Below, one piece after another: positions 1,149 to 32,432 of a stretch of 64,000 bases of DNA. The stretch comes from Erysipelatoclostridium sp. An173 (lineage in GTDB: Bacteria; Bacillota_I; Bacilli_A; Erysipelotrichales; Coprobacillaceae). The notes beneath the pieces were generated by a model. It saw nothing but the letters and a program-made list of their open reading frames with translations. It did not search any database and had not been told where the DNA came from. Position 1 is the stretch's first letter; each line of letters begins with the position of its first letter. Made by a program: the position numbers and the translations under genes. Location: positions 1 through 64,000 of the forward strand of contig NZ_NFKR01000002.1 of assembly GCF_002160495.1 (NCBI RefSeq). Reading direction: 5' to 3'.

Positions 1149-1670
1149 TTAATATTTGATGATATTAATATTTCTTTTCATTTGCATAAATTGACTATGA
1201 TGATGATCAAGAAAATAATTTACAATATTAGATTCATTACTTTCTAAAGATAAATTTGCACTTTCTAAATAGATTTTCCATTTCTTTTCATAATTCTTGA
1301 CTACATAATAGATATTTGATAAATCAATGGCACTATGCTGATCTAAAAAATCAACTAATGAATGATTATAATATGATTTCAATATTTCGATTTGTGTAGC
1401 TACTAAAAGCATTGAAGAAGGAACCATATTTTGAACAAGAACTGCATGAGTTCTACCGCAATGTTTACACATTACTCTTTGAATTTGAATACAGATTTTT
1501 CGATCGGGAATTTTATAATGACGAGGATATGTACCAATTTTAACTAAAGTGCCTTTTTGACCACAAGTACACCTTATCTTTTTAAAATTGATTAATTTAA
1601 TTATTGAGTCGTATAATTCTTGGGTTATTTCAACATTAAAATATTCGCTATTATCGGTGATGGCAATCAT
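1149..1670 (-). CDS. Zinc-ribbon protein, DUF6431-like
   Basis: A 173-residue protein with an N-terminal zinc-ribbon-like arrangement: Cys34-X-Cys36 and Cys68-X2-Cys71, the second in MCKHCGRTHAV. Its C-terminal half is helical with no motif I recognise. Small proteins of this shape, often called DUF6431, occur next to or within insertion sequences in gut Firmicutes and may be transposon-associated DNA-binding factors. Neither a partner gene nor terminal repeats are visible here. The family name is from memory and uncertain; the metal-binding cysteines are directly visible. The 274 bases upstream hold no gene. Confidence 0.5.
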   Translation of the reverse strand: MIAITDNSEYFNVEITQELYDSIIKLINFKKIRCTCGQKGTLVKIGTYPRHYKIPDRKICIQIQRVMCKHCGRTHAVLVQNMVPSSMLLVATQIEILKSYYNHSLVDFLDQHSAIDLSNIYYVVKNYEKKWKIYLESANLSLESNESNIVNYFLDHHHSQFMQMKRNINIIKY

Positions 1671-1893
1671 ATTATCCCTCCATTTATAACTAAAAATTTA
1701 TCTAGATGTAATAGTTAAATTATTTAATTATAAAAAGGGTAATCGAAGATCAATAAAGTATAGTGGGTTATAATAGTTAATAGGTCGTTAGGGTAATACT
1801 GTATCTTCTATTATTATATCAGTTAAATTTGTTAATCGGTAGCAACAGTTTTGAATAATTATTAAAATTAAACTACTAATTTTAAATTATAAT

Positions 1894-1929
1894 AAAAAAG
1901 AGATTTCTTATTTCACTAAAAAATCTCTT
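1894..1929 (-). terminator. Terminator of the trehalose operon
   Basis: Stem AAGAGATTT (1898-1906) pairs with AAATCTCTT (1921-1929). On the minus strand it is followed by a T tract (A run at 1894-1899). It lies just beyond the stop of the phosphotrehalase gene. Confidence 0.75.
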
Positions 1930-3592: not shown

Positions 3593-5425
3593 TTATCCTT
3601 TCCATTTAAAAATATTTTCTTGTTTTAATTGTACAAATTGCTCATTACATTCAATATGCTCGCCACTAGTAAATACAACCGGAGAAACAACCGATTTTTT
3701 TTGTGATAAAACATATTCAAGATCTACTTTAGCGATAGTTTGTCCTTGTTTAATACAATCTCCTTGATTAACGAAAGATTCAAAACCCTTACCATTTAAC
3801 TGGACGGTATCCATACCAATATGAATTAAAACTTCTAATCCATCATCACGTTTCAATCCATAAGCATGTTTGGTAGGAAAAGTCATTATCACTTCACCAC
3901 TAAATGGTGCAATAATTTCACCGTTTTTTAATTCTACTGCAAAGCCATCACCCATTAAGCCTTGTGAAAATACCTGATCTTCTACTTTAGATAATGGTAT
4001 TAGATTGCCAGCCATTGGGCAAATAAAATCTTTTTCTTTATTTGATTTTGCAGGGGTAGCTAATTTTTTTCTACCAGATACATAAGTTAAAATAAAGGGG
4101 ATACCAATAGCAACAGCCACCGCTAATAAATAATAACCCCAGAATTCTGGTTTGATTGAAATAATTGCTGGTAGTCCACCAATTCCAATACTGAAAGCCT
4201 GGATACCAAACCCAACTGAGATTGCAGCTGCAATCGCTGAACCAATCATACCACTAATTAATGGAAAATGATGTTTAATATTTACATCGAATAAAGCTGG
4301 TTCACTAACACCTAAATAACAGGAAATACAGGCAGGGGCATTTATTTTACGAGCATTTTTGTCATTTCTTTGTAATACAAACATCGCTAATACACTAGAA
4401 GCCTGAGCTATATTAGACAAAGCAATCATTGGCCAAAGAATAGTACCACCAAAAGTAGTAGTTAAAATAGTATCAATGATGATTGTTAAATGATGCAATC
4501 CCGTCATGACAAAAGGAACATAAATAAAACTAATTATAGCAGCTATAATTATTGCCAGGTTTGAAGTAAAAGCGCTATTAACAACATTTGCGATAATACT
4601 TTCAATGATTAAACCAATAGGACCTAAAATTACATAAGTAACAAATACAGTCAATATTAAAGAACAAAAGGGAACAATAATCATTTTAATAGCATTTGGA
4701 ATAATTTTATTAAATGATTTTTCTATAAATACCAGCATAAAACCTGCTAGCATAGCCGTAACGATTTGTCCTTGATAATCGGTTATTGAAATTTGAACAA
4801 CTCCTAATTCCAAGCTAGAAATTGACTGTGGTATAACTAAAGTTAGACCTAATATAATTCCTAATATTTGTGTGGTTTCCATTTTTTTAGTTATTGACCA
4901 GACAATTCCTACTGGAAGTAATGGGAATATTGCTTCACTAATTAACCATAGAAAATGATCAAAGCTAGCTAAAAATGGATAAATATCTGTTAAGCTTTGA
5001 GTGCCATTATTAAAAAAATTAATTTCACTAATAATGTTTCTAAAACCTAAAATTAAACCACCACAAATTAAAGCCGGAATTAATGGGGCAAAGATTTCAC
5101 CTAGTATCGCAACTATTCTTTGAACATGGTTTTGTTTAGAATCATTATTTTTTATTGTTTCTTGGTCATTTTTTTCAATATTACTTATTTTAATAAAATC
5201 ATTATAGAAATTAGCTACTTCATTACCAATAATTACTTGAAATTGTCCAGATTGATTAAATGTCCCCTTAACAGATGGAATAGATTCAATTTTAGAGATA
5301 TCAGCAACACTTGAATCAATCAAGACAAAACGCATCCTAGTTACACAATGGGTTACAGCACGAATATTTGCTGTTCCACCAATATATTTTAATAATTCTT
5401 GAGCGTCATTTTCAAACTTACTCAT
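3593..5425 (-). CDS. treP: Trehalose-specific PTS permease EIIBCA
   Basis: A membrane permease of 610 residues that imports trehalose and phosphorylates it to trehalose 6-phosphate. Domain order is EIIB (about 1-85), with phosphorylated Cys27 in VTHCVTRMRF; EIIC (about 105-450), with some ten membrane segments; and EIIA (about 470-610), with His535 in VLIHIGMDTV as the phospho-acceptor and His520 as the supporting histidine. All phosphotransfer residues are present, so it is probably active. The sucrose/trehalose family cannot be split by sequence alone, but the phosphotrehalase immediately downstream decides for trehalose. A TATAAT-like -10 lies about 45 bases upstream. Confidence 0.92.
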   Translation of the reverse strand: MSKFENDAQELLKYIGGTANIRAVTHCVTRMRFVLIDSSVADISKIESIPSVKGTFNQSGQFQVIIGNEVANFYNDFIKISNIEKNDQETIKNNDSKQNHVQRIVAILGEIFAPLIPALICGGLILGFRNIISEINFFNNGTQSLTDIYPFLASFDHFLWLISEAIFPLLPVGIVWSITKKMETTQILGIILGLTLVIPQSISSLELGVVQISITDYQGQIVTAMLAGFMLVFIEKSFNKIIPNAIKMIIVPFCSLILTVFVTYVILGPIGLIIESIIANVVNSAFTSNLAIIIAAIISFIYVPFVMTGLHHLTIIIDTILTTTFGGTILWPMIALSNIAQASSVLAMFVLQRNDKNARKINAPACISCYLGVSEPALFDVNIKHHFPLISGMIGSAIAAAISVGFGIQAFSIGIGGLPAIISIKPEFWGYYLLAVAVAIGIPFILTYVSGRKKLATPAKSNKEKDFICPMAGNLIPLSKVEDQVFSQGLMGDGFAVELKNGEIIAPFSGEVIMTFPTKHAYGLKRDDGLEVLIHIGMDTVQLNGKGFESFVNQGDCIKQGQTIAKVDLEYVLSQKKSVVSPVVFTSGEHIECNEQFVQLKQENIFKWKG

Positions 5426-18054: not shown

Positions 18055-18678
18055 ATGAAAGAAAAAGTTATTATTGGTGAAAGGATTGGAATCAAAACTA
18101 TTTTAGCGGGATATGTAGAATGGAGCATATTTGGCTTGATGGGAGCTGTTGGATTTTATAATTTGGTTGGACGTTATTTCATTAGTGATTCTAGAGTTAA
18201 TTTGTTAGTATCATTGATTATTTTTATAGTAGTTGTGTTATTAGTAACTCCACTTTTTGGAGCAAATGAGTATTTAGAGTTTTCTAATGAAAAGGTATGT
18301 CATTATCGAGCTGGTAGTTATTTACAAAAGTGGTATCGAGCTATTATGATAATAATGAAAAAACCTGATTTGTGTAATTTGGAAATAAAAACTAGTGAAA
18401 TTTATAGTGTACAATTATCTTATGTACGTTTTACGATGCTTTATGGACAAGCTGGTTATCAGTTAAAAATGACATTTTTATTAAAAGATGGTAGTTTGTT
18501 TTCTGTTTTACCAGCAGGTATTGATGATATGAAAAAAGGAAGATTCGAACAGGCATTTTCATTATTAGAGGAAAATGGGGTAACAATTGTTGATAAATTT
18601 AATTTAAGAAGTGTTTTAAATGATAAAAACAGTTTCTATTTGCATATTAAAGAAATTGAGGATTTGGAAAAATGTTAA
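18055..18678 (+). CDS. Two-pass membrane protein with a cytoplasmic PH-like domain
   Basis: A 207-residue protein, not assigned to a family. Two hydrophobic segments (about 18-40 and 48-72) are followed by a beta-rich cytoplasmic part beginning NEYLEFSNEKVCHYRAG, which resembles the bacterial PH-like or YcxB-type domains attached to short membrane anchors. AGGAGG precedes ATG. Its last seven bases overlap the LytTR gene, so the two are likely produced together; a membrane sensor or anti-activator for the LytTR protein is a reasonable guess. Confidence 0.6.
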   Translation: MKEKVIIGERIGIKTILAGYVEWSIFGLMGAVGFYNLVGRYFISDSRVNLLVSLIIFIVVVLLVTPLFGANEYLEFSNEKVCHYRAGSYLQKWYRAIMIIMKKPDLCNLEIKTSEIYSVQLSYVRFTMLYGQAGYQLKMTFLLKDGSLFSVLPAGIDDMKKGRFEQAFSLLEENGVTIVDKFNLRSVLNDKNSFYLHIKEIEDLEKC

Positions 18679-19292
18679 AGGTATTGTTAGTTTGTCAAAA
18701 GGAAAGTAATGAAATGTTGAAATCATTACTTAAAAATAGTTTAGAAACTGTTGAGTTTATCGATGAAGAAATGGTAGATAATAATTGTATTATAATAAAA
18801 GAAATAGATGATAATATTGATGGGATTTCTAATTTAGTTAATTATCAGGGGCTTGTTTTTATGGTTAGTGATGGTAAGTATATGTTTGAATTATTAGAAT
18901 ATAAACCACTAGCATTTATTCGTAAGGATCATTTGCAAGAAGATATTGATTTTATTAGAGGTCAGTTAGAATATTTTAAGCAAGGATTAGAGTCATATAT
19001 TGATTTTAAATCAAGCTATCAAACGGTAAGAATGAAAATTAATAATATTGTATATATTGAATCTTTTGCTCATTATTTAATTATTCATAGTAAAAGTGCT
19101 AATGTGCGGGTAAGAGAAAAGCTCTCTACAACGTTAGATAAGTTAAAACCATATGGTTTTATTCAGGCTCATAAGTCATATATAGTTAATAAGCATTATT
19201 TAAAACAAAAAAATAATCGTGAATTGAAATTAGAAAATGGGATAACTATTCCTGTTGGGAAGAAATTTCAACAAGTAATTAAAGATCTTTAG
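18672..19292 (+). CDS. LytTR DNA-binding regulator with degenerate receiver
   Basis: A 206-residue regulator. The N-terminal 100 residues are the length and shape of a compressed receiver (KVLLVCQKES, later PLAFIRKDHL), but the acidic pocket and phospho-acceptor Asp are absent, so phosphorylation is unlikely. The C-terminal LytTR domain (about 115-206) is well conserved, with VRMKINNIVYIESFAHYLIIHS and FIQAHKSYIVN. LytTR proteins bind paired direct repeats upstream of their targets. No histidine kinase is adjacent; the overlapping membrane gene may take its place. Confidence 0.8.
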   Translation: MLKVLLVCQKESNEMLKSLLKNSLETVEFIDEEMVDNNCIIIKEIDDNIDGISNLVNYQGLVFMVSDGKYMFELLEYKPLAFIRKDHLQEDIDFIRGQLEYFKQGLESYIDFKSSYQTVRMKINNIVYIESFAHYLIIHSKSANVRVREKLSTTLDKLKPYGFIQAHKSYIVNKHYLKQKNNRELKLENGITIPVGKKFQQVIKDL

Positions 19293-19318
19293 TACTAACA
19301 AAATGTTAGTACTTTTTT
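19291..19318 (+). terminator. Terminator after the LytTR gene
   Basis: A perfect 9-bp stem AGTACTAAC (19291-19299) pairs with GTTAGTACT (19304-19312), followed by TTTTTT. It separates the MerR unit from the ATPase operon. Confidence 0.9.
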
Positions 19319-19320
19319 AA

Positions 19321-19600
19321 TATTAAAGTTTCAATCTTTATACATTCTTAATATCTTGCGTGCTAAGATATGGTTCGTTGAATAAGTGGTGGAGTCTGTC
19401 ATAAAGCGATTGCTTTATTTATTCAATGTAAGATTACTTAAATAACGGTATTTAAAGTTACAGGTAAATTACTATTAGTAAAAGAATTTATGTTAAATCT
19501 TTTATCTTTGACAGACCTTGAAAGGGGGAAGAATTTTATTTAGTGGTAATTTAAGTTAGAAATTTTTAAATATTTATTTAGTTATTATAGTAATTAGGAG
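19321..19600 (+). promoter_or_regulatory. Structured leader upstream of the P-type ATPase
   Basis: The 290 bases before the ATPase gene hold no gene but several paired segments. ATATCTT/AAGATAT forms a hairpin near 19350-19369. TTGAATAA (19379-19386) pairs with TTATTCAA (19419-19426), with TAAAGC/GCTTTA inside. GTCTGTCA (19394-19401) is complementary to TGACAGAC (19509-19516), which would form a pseudoknot or an alternative fold with the second hairpin. I do not recognise it as M-box, yybP-ykoY or ydaO. It may be an RNA switch responding to an ion or a nucleotide; no terminator stem was found in it. Confidence 0.4.
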
Positions 19601-19608
19601 AGTTTTAT

Positions 19609-22419
19609 ATGGTTTTAAATAAAAAAGACGAATTAGTTGAAAGCCAAATTATTTACATGACACCGGTCGAAGCATACAAGTCAATGGAGACTAGTATGGA
19701 AGGATTGTCAGATATTCAAGTAAGTCAACGATTAGAAAAATATGGTAAAAACGTAATCACCAAGAAAAAGCAGGATTCATTATTTAAAAAGTTTATATCG
19801 AACTTTACAAGTTTGATGGCACTGCTTTTATGGTGTGGTGGAATCATTGCAATTATATCTGGTAGTGTTGAACTTGGGATATCTATTTTCTGTGTCAATT
19901 TAATAAACGGCTTTTTTTCATTTTTCCAAGAATTTAAAGCAGAAAAGGCTACTGGTGCTTTGCAAAAAATGATGCCTTCATATGCAAGGGTAGTTAGAAA
20001 TAATCAAGAAGTAAAAATATTAGCGGAGGATATTGTCCCTGGCGATATTATGATTTTAGAAGAAGGGGATCGGATTAGTGGTGACGCTAGAATTTTACGT
20101 TGTAGTGATTTTAAAGTTGACCAATCAACTTTAACCGGTGAAAGTAATCCGATTCGAAAAAATTATGAAGCTTTAAAAGAAGAGACTAGTTATCTTGAAG
20201 CTGCAAATATGATTTTTACAGGGACGACTGTTTCTTCAGGAACTTGTCATTGTGTTGTAGTTAAAACTGGTATGGCAACTGAATTTGGTAAGATTGCCGA
20301 TTTAACACAAAATACTAAAAAGACATTGTCCCCATTACAAAAAGAACTTAATATTTTAACTAAACAGATTGCTGCAATTGCTTTAAGTGTTGGGATTGCA
20401 TTTATGTTGATTGCTGTTTTCATTATCCAAGATCCAATCATGGAATCATTTATTTTTGCTTTAGGAATGGTCGTAGCTTTTATTCCTGAAGGTCTTTTAC
20501 CAGCGGTAACTTTATCACTAGCACTTTCAGTTCAAAGAATGGCTAAAGAAAATGCTTTAGTTAAAAAATTATCAGCAGTAGAAACTTTAGGTTGTACCAA
20601 TGTGATTTGTTCAGATAAGACCGGTACTTTAACTCAAAATGAAATGACGGTTAATCATTTATGGACGTTTGAAAGCAAATTAGATGTTAGTGGTGAAGGA
20701 TATAGTAGTGAAGGTAATATTCATGATGGTGATAATATCATCACAGTTAATAAAAGTAACACTTTAAGATTATTATTAAGTGGAGCTGCATTATGTTCAA
20801 ATGCTAAGTTGGTACCACCAAGTAAAAACAGTGCTAATGCTCGTTATACTGTTTTAGGTGATCCTACAGAAGCATGTTTGGGTGTTGTCGCTAAAAAAGG
20901 TGGCATTGACTATAAAAAGTTAAATCAAGAGTATCCTCGAATTTTAGAGTTGCCATTTGAGTCAAATCGTAAGAGAATGACAACAATTCATCAATTAAAG
21001 GAACCATTTGAAGGAAGTAACCGGATTGCTTTTATTAAAGGGTCTCCAAAAGAAGTGATGGAACTTTGTAATAAATATTATAGTGGTGGTAAAGCTAATC
21101 AAATAAGTGAAGATGATCGTCAAAAAATTATGGCAGCTAATGATTTATACGCTAAACAAGGTTTAAGGGTATTAGCGGTTGCCTATCGATCTTTATCACA
21201 CAATGATCCAAGTTTGCCAAGTGCAATTAGGGAATATACCCCAGAAAATATTGAACGTGATTTAACATTTCTTGGTTTAGTTGCGATGCAAGATCCACCT
21301 CGCAAAGAGGTTAAAGAAGCAGTTGCTTTATGCCGTAGCGCTGGAATCAAGATTATTATGATAACTGGTGACTATGGATTAACAGCAGAAAGTATTGCTC
21401 GTAAAATTGGGATTATTCAAAGTGAAGACGCTAAAATTATTTCTGGTGTTGAACTTGCAAAAATGGATGATGACCAGTTAAAAGAAGTATTAAAAGGTGA
21501 AGTTGTATTTGCACGTATGGCTCCAGATCAAAAATATCGAATTGTTTGTGCCTTACAGGAATTAGGAAATATTGTTGCGGTAACTGGTGATGGAGTTAAC
21601 GATTCACCAGCATTAAAGAAAGCTGATATTGGTGTTGCAATGGGTATTTCTGGTACAGATGTAGCTAAAGAAGCAGCTGATATGATTTTAACAGATGATA
21701 ACTTTGCTTCAATTGTTAGTGCTATTAAAGAAGGACGGACGGTATATAATAATATTAGAAAATTCTTACGTTATATTTTCGATAGTAACACGCCAGAAGC
21801 TGCTGCTCCTGCGTTATATCTATTTTCTGGTGGTTTAGTTCCTTTACCATTAACGATCATGCAGATTTTAACGATTGATATTGGTACTGACATGGTTCCT
21901 GCTTTAGGACTAGGTGCAGAGCATGGTGAAGATAATATCATGAATCAGCCACCACGTTCATTAGATGAGCGGTTATTAAATAAATCAGTAATTATTAGAG
22001 GATTTCTTTGGTATGGATTATTGCTTACTGTATTTGCTTTAGGTGGTTATTTCTTAGTCAATTACTTATATGGCTGGCCAAATGTTTCATTGGCTCCTGA
22101 AGGAACTTTTGTTTATCAAAAAGCAACGACAATGATGTTAGCAGGTGTTGTTTTTGGACAAATTGCAATGGCTTTAAACAATCGTACTGAAACAGAGTCA
22201 GTTTTAAAGCGTGGTATTTTTTCTAACCATTATATAAATCTTGGTTTTGTAGTTGAAATAGTAATTTTACTATTAATTGTTTATGTGCCTTTTTTTAATG
22301 GTGTTTTTGGTACAGCACCACTAGGAATTTATGAATGGTTATATTTAATCCCAATTCCATTTATTCTATTTGGAATTGAAGAATTAAGAAAGAAAATTGT
22401 GAAAAAAAGAAAAAAATAA
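19609..22419 (+). CDS. P-type cation ATPase of Na,K-ATPase (type IIC)-like kind
   Basis: A 936-residue membrane pump with ten predicted helices. Motifs: TGES (176-179), phosphorylated Asp336 in CSDKTGTLTQNEM, KGSP (478-481), TGDGVND (659-665). Ion-site residues follow the Na,K-ATPase pattern, not the SERCA one: Glu294 in PEGLL of M4, Ser726-Asn727-x-Pro-Glu730 in M5, and Asp757 and Asp761 in DIGTDMVPA of M6. Transport of Na+ and/or K+ is therefore more likely than Ca2+, though databases would probably say calcium-transporting. No beta subunit is seen. Two TrkA-type proteins follow after 11 and 14 bases in what looks like one operon. Confidence 0.85.
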   Translation: MVLNKKDELVESQIIYMTPVEAYKSMETSMEGLSDIQVSQRLEKYGKNVITKKKQDSLFKKFISNFTSLMALLLWCGGIIAIISGSVELGISIFCVNLINGFFSFFQEFKAEKATGALQKMMPSYARVVRNNQEVKILAEDIVPGDIMILEEGDRISGDARILRCSDFKVDQSTLTGESNPIRKNYEALKEETSYLEAANMIFTGTTVSSGTCHCVVVKTGMATEFGKIADLTQNTKKTLSPLQKELNILTKQIAAIALSVGIAFMLIAVFIIQDPIMESFIFALGMVVAFIPEGLLPAVTLSLALSVQRMAKENALVKKLSAVETLGCTNVICSDKTGTLTQNEMTVNHLWTFESKLDVSGEGYSSEGNIHDGDNIITVNKSNTLRLLLSGAALCSNAKLVPPSKNSANARYTVLGDPTEACLGVVAKKGGIDYKKLNQEYPRILELPFESNRKRMTTIHQLKEPFEGSNRIAFIKGSPKEVMELCNKYYSGGKANQISEDDRQKIMAANDLYAKQGLRVLAVAYRSLSHNDPSLPSAIREYTPENIERDLTFLGLVAMQDPPRKEVKEAVALCRSAGIKIIMITGDYGLTAESIARKIGIIQSEDAKIISGVELAKMDDDQLKEVLKGEVVFARMAPDQKYRIVCALQELGNIVAVTGDGVNDSPALKKADIGVAMGISGTDVAKEAADMILTDDNFASIVSAIKEGRTVYNNIRKFLRYIFDSNTPEAAAPALYLFSGGLVPLPLTIMQILTIDIGTDMVPALGLGAEHGEDNIMNQPPRSLDERLLNKSVIIRGFLWYGLLLTVFALGGYFLVNYLYGWPNVSLAPEGTFVYQKATTMMLAGVVFGQIAMALNNRTETESVLKRGIFSNHYINLGFVVEIVILLLIVYVPFFNGVFGTAPLGIYEWLYLIPIPFILFGIEELRKKIVKKRKK

Positions 22420-22430
22420 AGGAGAAGAAT

Positions 22431-23078
22431 ATGAAAATAATAATTGTTGGCTGTGGGAATTTTGGAACCCGTTTAGCGAAATATTTAAATGGATTAAATC
22501 ATGATGTTGTTATTATTGATAACCGTCAGGAAACGTTTAATAATTTAGATGATAACTTTACTGGGAAAACTATTTTAGGTATTGGTTATGACAAAGATAT
22601 TTTAGAAAAAGCGGGTATTAAAACAGCAGATACTTTAGTTAGCTGTTCAAGCAGTGATGCAGTAAATGCAGTAGTAAGTCATATTGCTCATAATATTTAT
22701 CATGTTCCTAATGTAATTGCCCGTATGTATGATAATAAAAAAGCTCGAATTTTTAGATCAATGGGAATCCACATTATTTCAGTAACAGGATTAGGTGTTG
22801 AAAGAATTATGGATTATATTGATACTAGTCGTTTGCAGGTAATTAAAAAAATCGGTGATGATAGTGAAATTAGAGTTGTAAAAATCAAAGCTGGTTTATC
22901 AATGATTGGTAAAACAGTTTTAGAAATTACTAGTCATGGCGAATTTGAAGTAATTGCTATTGAACGCTATGGAACAACTATGATTCCTTTAAAAGATACT
23001 AAAATTATGGAAAATGATGTTGTCTATTTTACTGTATTAGAAGAATCAATTAATGAATTTAAACAAGCTATTTTATAA
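22431..23078 (+). CDS. TrkA/KtrA-type RCK protein, first copy
   Basis: A 215-residue cytosolic regulator made of an RCK_N Rossmann domain (GCGNFGTRLAKYL, with an acidic residue ending strand 2 in VVIIDNR, fitting NAD(H) or nucleotide binding) and an RCK_C domain from about 135. Such proteins gate TrkH or KtrB potassium channels, and the RCK_C part binds c-di-AMP in KtrA. No channel gene is adjacent; instead it follows the Na,K-type ATPase by 11 bases and precedes a second TrkA gene. A regulatory role on the pump is inferred from this context. Confidence 0.85.
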   Translation: MKIIIVGCGNFGTRLAKYLNGLNHDVVIIDNRQETFNNLDDNFTGKTILGIGYDKDILEKAGIKTADTLVSCSSSDAVNAVVSHIAHNIYHVPNVIARMYDNKKARIFRSMGIHIISVTGLGVERIMDYIDTSRLQVIKKIGDDSEIRVVKIKAGLSMIGKTVLEITSHGEFEVIAIERYGTTMIPLKDTKIMENDVVYFTVLEESINEFKQAIL

Positions 23079-23092
23079 TTATGGAGGATAAT

Positions 23093-23755
23093 ATGAGAGT
23101 AATTATTATAGGTGGTGGCCAGGTAGGAACTTATATTGCTGGTTTGCTATATGAAAATCATGATGTTAAAGTAATTGAAAATCGTCCTAAATCAATTGAA
23201 AATTTTAAAAACTATAATCTACCAGAAGAATTACTAGTTATTGGTGATGGTACCGATGTTGATGTTTTAGAAAAAGCTGGTATTAGAGAATGTGATGCTT
23301 TGGTCTGTGTTACTGGTCTTGATGAAATAAACTTAACAGCAGCAATGGTTTCTAAATTTGAATACGATGTACCACGAGTAATTGGACGTGTTAATAATCC
23401 TAAAAATGTCTGGTTATTTAACTCAGGAATGGGAATTGATACTAAGATTAATCAAGCAGATATTATTGGTCATATGATTGCTGATGAAATGAATTATCAA
23501 TCTTTAATGACTTTATTAAAATTATCAAAAGGTGATTATTCAATTGTACGTATTCGAGTAGATTATCATTCTAGTTATGTTGGAAAAACAGTATCTCAAC
23601 TTGATATGCCTAATAACGCTTTATTGATCGCTATCTACCAAGACGATGAATTATTAATTCCTCATGGTGATACAGTAATTGAAGCGGGACAGAATATTTT
23701 AGCTTTTGGTGATGATCAGGCAATTGAAAAATTGAATCAGATTTTTACTAGCTAA
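23093..23755 (+). CDS. TrkA/KtrA-type RCK protein, second copy
   Basis: A 220-residue paralogue of the preceding protein, with RCK_N (IIIGGGQVGTYIAGLL, then VKVIENRP) and RCK_C (from about 135, with VGKTVSQLDMPNNALLIAI). The two copies are clearly diverged and may form a hetero-oligomer like the tandem halves of E. coli TrkA. ATG at 23093 is used because GGAGG lies seven bases before it; an in-frame ATG at 23081 would include that site. It is the last gene of the ATPase operon. Confidence 0.85.
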   Translation: MRVIIIGGGQVGTYIAGLLYENHDVKVIENRPKSIENFKNYNLPEELLVIGDGTDVDVLEKAGIRECDALVCVTGLDEINLTAAMVSKFEYDVPRVIGRVNNPKNVWLFNSGMGIDTKINQADIIGHMIADEMNYQSLMTLLKLSKGDYSIVRIRVDYHSSYVGKTVSQLDMPNNALLIAIYQDDELLIPHGDTVIEAGQNILAFGDDQAIEKLNQIFTS

Positions 23756-31128: not shown

Positions 31129-31134
31129 ATTAGT

Positions 31135-31365
31135 CAAACTCGATGACTAAAAGAGTAGTCTTAATGATGGTTTTAGCGAGCTAGCGTTGGTGGAAGGTTA
31201 GTAATCTAGTTAAGATAAAGCGCATTTACGAGAGGAAAGTGGGAAATAATAGTATCACTTTCGGGTTATCGCCCTTATCGATGAAAGTGGTCATAAGGTC
31301 AACTTATGATAATTAGAGTGGTAACGCGGTTAATTTCGTCTCTTGGTTCAAGAGACGTTTTTTAT
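31135..31365 (+). promoter_or_regulatory. T-box leader of argCJB, probable arginine specifier
   Basis: A tRNA-sensing riboswitch. The stem I apical motif AGCGAGCTAGCGTTGGTG (from 31175) matches the T-box consensus; the T-box itself reads AGAGTGGTAACGCGG (31315-31329), two changes from the consensus; and the terminator is a perfect 9-bp stem CGTCTCTTG/CAAGAGACG (31337-31357) with TTTTTTA. On the 3' side of stem I the most likely specifier codon is CGC at 31221-31223, followed by the usual purine, i.e. arginine. Uncharged tRNA-Arg would favour the antiterminator and switch on argCJB. Specifier position is inferred from alignment by eye. Confidence 0.88.
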
Positions 31366-31394: not shown

Positions 31395-32432
31395 ATGATT
31401 AGAGTAGGTATAGTAGGGGCAACTGGATATGGTGGTTGTGAACTAGTACGATTTTTATTAACACATAAAGACGTTGAGATTAAATGGGTTTCATCAAGGA
31501 CATACACTGATCAAGAGTATAGTTCTGTTTATTCAAGTTATTTTAAATTATTAGATCAAAAATGTGTTGATGAAAATATTGAAGATTATTTAGATGATGT
31601 TGATGTTGTATTTTTTGCAACACCACAAGGGGTATGTGCTAAAACAGTTAATGAAAATGTCTTGAATAAGGTCAAGGTGATTGACTTGAGTGCTGATTAT
31701 CGTATCAAAGATGTTGCAACATATGAAGCCTGGTATGGAATTAAGCATGCTTCACCACAATTTATTGATGAGGCTGTTTATGGATTATGTGAGATTAATC
31801 GTGAAAAAATAAAAGCAGCTCGTTTAATTGCTAATCCAGGATGTTATCCAACTTGTTCAATTTTATCAATATATCCACTTGTAAAAGCAAATTTAATTGA
31901 AACAGATACGTTGATAATTGATGCTAAAAGCGGAGTTAGCGGTGCTGGTAGATCTGCTAAAGTTGCTAATTTATATTGTGAAGTTAATGAAAGTATCAAA
32001 GCTTATGGGGTAACAACACATCGCCATACACCAGAAATTGAAGAACAGCTAGGCTATGTAGCTAATAAAACTGTTTTATTGAATTTTACACCACATTTAG
32101 TACCGATGAATCGTGGCATTTTAGTAACGGCTTATGCTAAATTGAAACCAGGTGTTAGTAAAGAAGATGTTGAAAAAGCTTATCAATGTTATGATGATGA
32201 ATATTTTGTTAGGGTATTAAAACCAGGAGTTGTTCCTGAAGTAAGAAGTGTTAAGGCAAGCAATTTTGTTGATGTAAATTATCAAATTGACCCACGTACT
32301 AATCGAGTTATTATGATGGGCGCTATGGATAATTTAGTTAAAGGTGCTGCTGGGCAGGCTATTCAAAATATGAATATTATGTTTGGTCTTGATGAAAAAG
32401 AAGGTTTAATGTTAGCACCAGCAATTTTATAG
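31395..32432 (+). CDS. argC: N-acetyl-gamma-glutamyl-phosphate reductase
   Basis: Third step of arginine synthesis, NADPH-dependent. 345 residues. The Rossmann start is VGIVGATGYGG (4-14) and the catalytic Cys150 is in ANPGCYPT; the later THRHTPEIEE and TPHLVPMNRGI motifs are typical. It is first in argCJB behind the T-box, with a GGGGGA site before ATG. Confidence 0.96.
   Translation: MIRVGIVGATGYGGCELVRFLLTHKDVEIKWVSSRTYTDQEYSSVYSSYFKLLDQKCVDENIEDYLDDVDVVFFATPQGVCAKTVNENVLNKVKVIDLSADYRIKDVATYEAWYGIKHASPQFIDEAVYGLCEINREKIKAARLIANPGCYPTCSILSIYPLVKANLIETDTLIIDAKSGVSGAGRSAKVANLYCEVNESIKAYGVTTHRHTPEIEEQLGYVANKTVLLNFTPHLVPMNRGILVTAYAKLKPGVSKEDVEKAYQCYDDEYFVRVLKPGVVPEVRSVKASNFVDVNYQIDPRTNRVIMMGAMDNLVKGAAGQAIQNMNIMFGLDEKEGLMLAPAIL

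Follow-up and report, generated by a model that had tools for sequence, protein, structure and literature searches.

In the genome of Erysipelatoclostridium sp. An173, the window (the whole 64,000-nt stretch of DNA that was analysed) contains an intergenic leader followed by genes for a P-type ATPase and two TrkA-like proteins, so that the leader does precede an ion-transport operon, as had been proposed from the sequence. Just upstream (18055-19292) are the genes of a regulator of the LytTR type and of a small membrane protein, and the same pair is found before the ATPase in a relative, locus L005. The features of the leader and the operon are given below.

19291-19313, + strand: intrinsic terminator of the upstream LytTR gene (terminator scan), after which the intergenic region of the leader starts
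19361-19369, + strand: likely extended -10 element TGC TAAGAT (TGCTAAGAT), which would place the start near 19376, without a good -35 box (sequence; position as in the promoters of relatives)
19377-19385, + strand: 5′ strand of stem P1, GTTGAATAA (sequence, covariation)
19386-19400, + strand: conserved 15-nt bulge GTGGTGGAGTCTGTC with nothing opposite, putative ligand-binding core and switching strand (bulge conservation)
19401-19407, + strand: 5′ strand of stem P2, ATAAAGC (covariation)
19412-19418, + strand: 3′ strand of P2, GCTTTAT (covariation)
19419-19427, + strand: 3′ strand of P1, TTATTCAAT (covariation)
19480-19506, + strand: A+T-rich hairpin AAAAGAATTTATGTTAAATCTTTTAT at the place of the G+C terminator of relatives; its role as a terminator is doubtful (no strong terminator scored)
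19509-19516, + strand: TGACAGAC, perfect complement of 19394-19401 (sequence; GACAG elements related to it in relatives)
19609-22419, + strand: P-type cation ATPase (among solved structures closest to Na,K-ATPase alpha subunits, by a narrow margin over SPCA1 and LMCA1)
22431-23078, + strand: TrkA-like protein with TrkA_N and TrkA_C (domain scan)
23081-23755, + strand: second TrkA-like protein (domain scan)

The hairpin occupies 19377-19427 and consists of a 9-bp P1, the one-sided 15-nt bulge GTGGTGGAGTCTGTC and a 7-bp P2. The sequence-only reading had described a hairpin closed by TTGAATAA (19378-19385) and TTATTCAA (19419-19426); this was recovered, the full stem being GTTGAATAA/TTATTCAAT together with ATAAAGC/GCTTTAT. 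The same reading had placed GTCTGTCA (19394-19401) inside the hairpin and noted its full complementarity to TGACAGAC (19509-19516), 108 bases downstream, and both positions were verified exactly. In the leader before the same ATPase in L005, the P1 sequence is kept and the bulge and P2 are lost, which makes it a natural deletion of the switch core.

By itself, an 8-nt complement is weak evidence, since a perfect complement of 8 nt, with its halves separated by 30 nt or more, also turned up in 86% of 1000 shuffles that preserved the dinucleotides of the intergenic region, and the intergenic region holds seven such pairs. A complement with at least four G+C, as in the An173 leader, was found in only 0.3% of 1000 dinucleotide shuffles. 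The fold energy of the 286-nt leader was ordinary (z -1.67). An 8-mer complement could arise by chance alone, but its conservation rules chance out. The case for a real RNA element is instead made by the recurrence of the core in relatives and in Clostridia, by strong covariation and by the recurring complementarity between bulge and downstream sequence, which are described in the following.

When 31 genomes were searched by BLAST with the leader, the hairpin, and not the whole leader, proved to be the most widely conserved part; a plasmid BLAST with the An173 leader gave no match. Within the window's family, a covariance model of the hairpin core (R1) matched in 15 of 43 genomes; in a sample of 296 genomes from the class it matched in 8, and new distant loci were found in one family (L037, L038, L040 and L041) and in another (L036), while L039 was dropped. 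One exact-pattern scan of GTDB genomes gave at least 116 stretches with at least 117 sites. Most true loci among the matches listed were from Clostridia and from gut and rumen genomes of the Oscillospiraceae type; the genomes listed also included Gemmiger, Massilimicrobiota, Faecalitalea cylindroides, Longibaculum muris and Anaeroplasma bactoclasticum, as well as chance sites in the coding DNA of unrelated phyla. Counting base pairs proved too lax as a test of structure, as 536 of 2340 random positions passed compared to 86 of the 117 sites, and covariance scores were therefore adopted.

With a later covariance model, R2, 77 matches were obtained in the 100 pattern loci given to it of the 116 listed. 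The remaining 16 comprised ten loci whose records were presumed identical to those of family loci, another four that were near-duplicates, and L155 and L161, which were unlike the RNA by eye. Members mostly scored 40-80 with R2; L120 scored 28.6, and L042 and L043, at 28.4 and 27.4, rose to 36.5 and 37.4 with a third model, R3. Several loci were dropped by eye as coding or as being without the core (L039, L044, L045, L048, L261, L262, L271, L274, L275 and L277-L279). Covariance models and pattern scan together yielded at least 97 copies, distributed over Erysipelotrichia-like Bacilli, Anaeroplasma-like bacteria and Clostridia; L272, L273 and L276 were found after this tally and stand outside the 97.

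R3 matched in 6 of 391 genomes drawn from the class of the L058 genome, the Clostridia (E ≤0.001), two of these matches being false ones in coding frames and one being the centre genome, and in 16 of 395 genomes of the window's class (E ≤0.005), four of which were false ones in coding frames. The distribution of the RNA is thus wide but patchy. The control consisted of 63 viral contigs that contain the bulge 15-mer; their best R3 score was 28.5 bits, inside a coding frame. Two candidates lie near the margin: a possible member in Limosilactobacillus gorillae (L126) has the 15-mer immediately ahead of a gene for a Na+/H+ exchanger, but no clear P2; in a Bacilli MAG (L145, about 5145-5209) the 15-mer is accompanied by a P1 of 11 bp that looks good by eye, the score is weak, and the downstream protein is without a Pfam match.

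Alignment A4 consisted of 86 rows, 83 of them distinct, from which 13 of the 77 R2 matches were excluded, namely L097, which is a near-duplicate, and 12 weak matches, among them L110, L113, L117 and L159 (under the E limit of 0.002). In the distinct rows, fitted to the structure in a way that favours it, 94.3% of the cells formed standard pairs compared to 75.4% in shuffles. Changes on both sides were found in 13 of the 16 pairs, amounting to 263 cells against 75 in shuffles (sd 9), and the covariation score was 0.501 against 0.163 (sd 0.009). When the structure was slid by 1-3 columns, the score reached at most 0.134. The covariation in homologous leaders on which the sequence-only reading had staked its case is thus present. 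P1 and P2 both vary freely in sequence across A4. The bulge, with the consensus GNGRUGGAGNCUGUCA, is near-constant. Among 37 copies in which the search pattern did not fix it, 10 of 16 positions were invariant and three more differed once, leaving positions 1, 2 and 10 of GTGGTGGAGTCTGTCA as the variable ones; some bias attaches to these figures, as the copies were found by models containing the bulge. Since most loci came from one exact-pattern scan, both the conservation of the bulge and the proportions of genes given below are partly ascertained. A conserved, structured aptamer with covariation support, as expected of a riboswitch, is present.

A sigma-70-like promoter was found within 75 nt upstream in 85 of the 96 copies listed that had enough upstream sequence, compared to 121 of 1810 random windows. 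The -10 box ended at a median of 9 nt before P1, and at 12 nt or less in 73 of the copies listed, from which the RNA is predicted to start at or just before P1. The promoter of the An173 copy itself fell below the threshold in a scan at 9 of 12 matches; by alignment to the relatives its predicted start is at the foot of P1 and not downstream of 19516. The RNA lies in the predicted 5′ UTR of functionally related genes, as judged from the promoters and first genes. Some copies occur in pairs: Faecalitalea cylindroides (L143) has divergent copies at 1636-1694 (-) and 1848-1904 (+) in one intergenic region, one of them before TrkH, and L085 has copies with long P2 extensions at 1754-1847 (-) and 4007-4173 (+), preceding a phosphate transporter and a membrane pyrophosphatase.

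Downstream of the hairpin, within 150 nt, 70 of the 97 copies listed had a strong terminator. As a test for the longest complement was too lax, a motif was searched for in the terminator arm in its place. The extended motif complementary to both halves of the bulge was present in the 5′ arm of 49 of these 70 terminators compared to 4 of 192 other terminators of the same loci (Fisher p 1.8e-31). Sixteen arms were without even the shorter motif; on visual inspection, most of them seem able to pair with a different part of the bulge. One natural compensatory change was found in L025, where a CUGGC bulge goes with a CCAG arm. The two pairings had been suggested to be mutually exclusive or to form a pseudoknot, a view strengthened by the recurrence of the bulge/downstream complementarity across the copies. 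The usual pairing of the GTCTGTC strand with the arm of a terminator, and the breadth of the family, go beyond the earlier observation.

An expression platform overlapping the aptamer is accordingly present across the family, and the An173 copy departs from it in the G+C terminator. Terminator scans scored no strong terminator after the An173 hairpin, and its output step is uncertain since the clear G+C-rich terminator is missing or replaced by the A+T hairpin. In seven relatives (L021, L022, L028, L030, L031, L034 and L035) a second GACAG/ACAGAT element, GAAAGGAG-like, was observed after the U-run of the terminator, and it is this second element, rather than the terminator arm, to which TGACAGAC of An173 corresponds.

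Other forms of the platform were also seen. In Anaeroplasma-like copies and in copies before ATP-synthase genes, the 5′ strand of P2 carries GGCAG or GACAG, followed by a T-run, and in L276 a GGCAG is located between a Shine-Dalgarno-like GAGG and the start codon. The Bacillus and Neobacillus loci L053, L088, L110, L113 and L117 contain the same 15-mer and possibly a P1, and precede ArsB/NhaD-type permeases where inspected. In these loci the bulge itself forms part of a hairpin that resembles a terminator; they were kept out of the 97 because of their weak scores.

The first gene could be called in 90 of the 97 copies listed, with one representative scanned per named cluster, and in 85 of these 90, in this partly ascertained set, it encoded an ion transporter, an ion pump or pyruvate kinase. 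The largest cluster among the copies listed consisted of ArsB/NhaD/CitMHS-type permeases (n = 22), followed by TrkH (n = 18), membrane pyrophosphatase (n = 16), PHO4-type (PiT-like) phosphate transporters (n = 12), pyruvate kinase (n = 6), P-type ATPase (n = 5) and Na+/Ca2+ exchangers (n = 2). Two further first genes encode DUF1538 proteins, which matched the NCBIfam UmpA/UmpB subunits of a Na,Li,K/H+ antiporter below the cut-off, and single ones encode a Na+ decarboxylase beta subunit and MnhE (Mnh/Mrp), with five other singletons. The seven copies without a gene call include L027, before TrkH by translation, and L043, before an AtpI-type gene. The motif GNTVKA, a mark of K+-independent and mostly H+-pumping pyrophosphatases, was present in 13 of the 16 pyrophosphatases listed, the other three proteins being incomplete. 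Pyruvate kinase is a K+-dependent enzyme. A fluoride switch was considered and rejected, as no CrcB or CLC-type gene occurred among the first-gene clusters.

Comparison across the copies reveals a compact hairpin at the predicted 5′ end of the transcript, with a bulge complementary to the 5′ arm of the terminator that follows. Located before ion-transport and energy genes of gut and rumen bacteria, the strongly conserved hairpin resembles an ion-sensing RNA switch of a new class. We consider the An173 leader to be one copy of an uncatalogued cis-regulatory RNA class, most likely a riboswitch, which would act by competition between bulge and terminator, and put the probability of this reading at roughly 0.7. 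The initial impression of a riboswitch-like leader gains support from the covariation, from the predicted 5′ start at P1 and from the lack of any Rfam match.

The mechanism may be depicted as follows: The bulge would be both the ligand-binding core and the switching strand. When free, it would pair with the 5′ arm of the terminator and RNA polymerase would read through; when held in the hairpin by the ligand, it would leave the terminator to form and the genes would be off. In a variant, the ligand would stabilise a pseudoknot of bulge and arm, with the opposite sign and the genes on.

A small hairpin whose conserved bulge overlaps the pairing partner of a terminator would also fit an antiterminator or attenuator in which a conserved RNA-binding protein binds hairpin and bulge and the protein, not the RNA, senses the state of ions or energy; BglG/LicT-type proteins bind RAT hairpins that overlap a terminator arm in this way. 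We regard this as unlikely, as the identical 15-nt core precedes different genes in distant Bacilli families and in Clostridia, and no candidate RNA-binding gene recurs as the first gene among the copies listed. Less probable still is a trans-acting RNA or ligand-free attenuation, with the bulge as a seed or structural element only. The ambiguous sign of the switch and the An173 copy without a clear expression platform would agree with it, but the near-invariant loop in freely covarying stems, the consistent 5′ UTR position and the common theme of the genes do not.

For the riboswitch reading, the genes, which are the sole basis for naming a ligand, point tentatively to an alkali cation with Na+ first, at somewhat less than even odds; K+ would be the second candidate, about half as probable. 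TrkH, TrkA and pyruvate kinase argue for K+. The decarboxylase, Mnh and the exchangers of the NhaD-like and Na+/Ca2+ types argue for Na+, as does the overlap of the gene set with that of the Na+-I switch in the portions of two papers at hand (PMC9337991, PMC9646797). Against Na+ stand the GNTVKA motif in 13 of the 16 pyrophosphatases listed, and pyruvate kinase and the phosphate transporters, which are no obvious Na+ genes. Simple strand competition in the Clostridia would moreover turn the genes OFF with ligand, although a switch that senses Na+ would be expected to turn Na+ exporters ON. The direction of the switch as deduced from strand logic differs between the Clostridia, the Bacillus-like and the Anaeroplasma-like forms, and the terminator hairpin made from the bulge in the Bacillus-like form would invert the sign.

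A riboswitch of the same anatomy with a ligand other than an alkali cation, such as c-di-AMP, protons (pH), a compound of the phosphate or adenylate kind or some other indicator of an energised membrane, is a possibility to which we give lower odds than to Na+. H+-coupled and phosphate-linked genes are present (membrane pyrophosphatase, PiT, pyruvate kinase and the ATP-synthase leader gene) and c-di-AMP is linked to K+ transport, but genes for monovalent cations dominate or recur (TrkH, UmpAB-like, Mnh/Mrp, Na+ decarboxylase and Na+/Ca2+ exchanger), and no ydaO-type match was found in the Rfam scans. In a bolder and rather improbable version of the riboswitch reading, the class would be the first direct RNA sensor of K+ (or protons). 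By means of different platforms it would switch off uptake genes such as TrkH and switch on genes for efflux or for the use of K+ (UmpAB-like antiporter, pyruvate kinase), and it would form an ion regulon without a protein sensor in a part of the gut Firmicutes.

If true, a further alkali-cation class with a core of about 50 nt across Bacilli and Clostridia would reveal how Na+/K+ balance and energy coupling are controlled in many gut and rumen bacteria. It would also make a function assignable to poorly named transporters under the shared switch (ArsB/NhaD-like, DUF1538 and PiT-like).

The whole Rfam 15 library gave a single match in the window, a T-box at 31134-31346 (RF00230, 121.8 bits) directly upstream of an argC-like gene at 31395, and none at the leader; a T-box was accordingly rejected for the leader. 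A scan of 19200-19700 with E up to 10 returned nothing beyond obvious chance matches. M-box, yybP-ykoY, ydaO, nhaA-I and nhaA-II were without an Rfam match in the window and in 18 member loci, and no Rfam 15 riboswitch family at all matched these 18 loci or the L103 leader. The opinion that the leader is not an M-box, yybP-ykoY or ydaO therefore agrees with the lack of a match at the gathering score. In the open-licence PMC literature, which was also searched for the core sequence, no earlier report of this RNA was found.

RF03071 (Na+-I) did not match the window, the 18 member loci or the L103 leader by its Rfam covariance model at the cut-off, and it was found in none of 50 genomes, that of the window and 49 more, all of which have the new RNA, while the control Lactococcus lactis matched. 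This absence is compatible with a replacement of one RNA by the other, but the Sodium family is seldom found in any case.

Few classes of alkali-cation riboswitch, namely Na+-I, Na+-II, Li+-I and Li+-II, are named in the available parts of five papers (PMC9337991, PMC9646797, PMC9481103, PMC9971707, PMC11109978). Na+-I (DUF1646 motif, RF03071) is described in excerpts of two of them as a small leader RNA that controls termination and precedes nhaD (Na+/H+ antiporter), oxaloacetate decarboxylase and ATP-synthase genes (PMC9337991, PMC9646797), so that the new RNA resembles it in being a small leader with an overlapping gene set. The Na+-I model is composed of two extended substructures of paired bases, and its conserved positions lie in the loop of P2 and at the foot of P1, whereas the new RNA has one stem with a 15-nt bulge. 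The Li+-I/Na+-II (nhaA-I) and Li+-II (nhaA-II) riboswitches are, in the accessible portion of one source, alkali-cation switches before cation transporter genes (PMC9646797). The gene set of the new RNA is wider than theirs, and no Rfam match to them was obtained in the scans made. The ydaO/yuaA c-di-AMP riboswitch precedes K+ transport genes, as the new RNA also does, but is unlike it in sequence and size and gave no Rfam match. Finally, the BglG/LicT-type RAT antiterminator is likewise a short hairpin, one strand of which competes with the 5′ arm of a terminator; RAT hairpins serve sugar PTS genes, whereas the new RNA serves ion transport.
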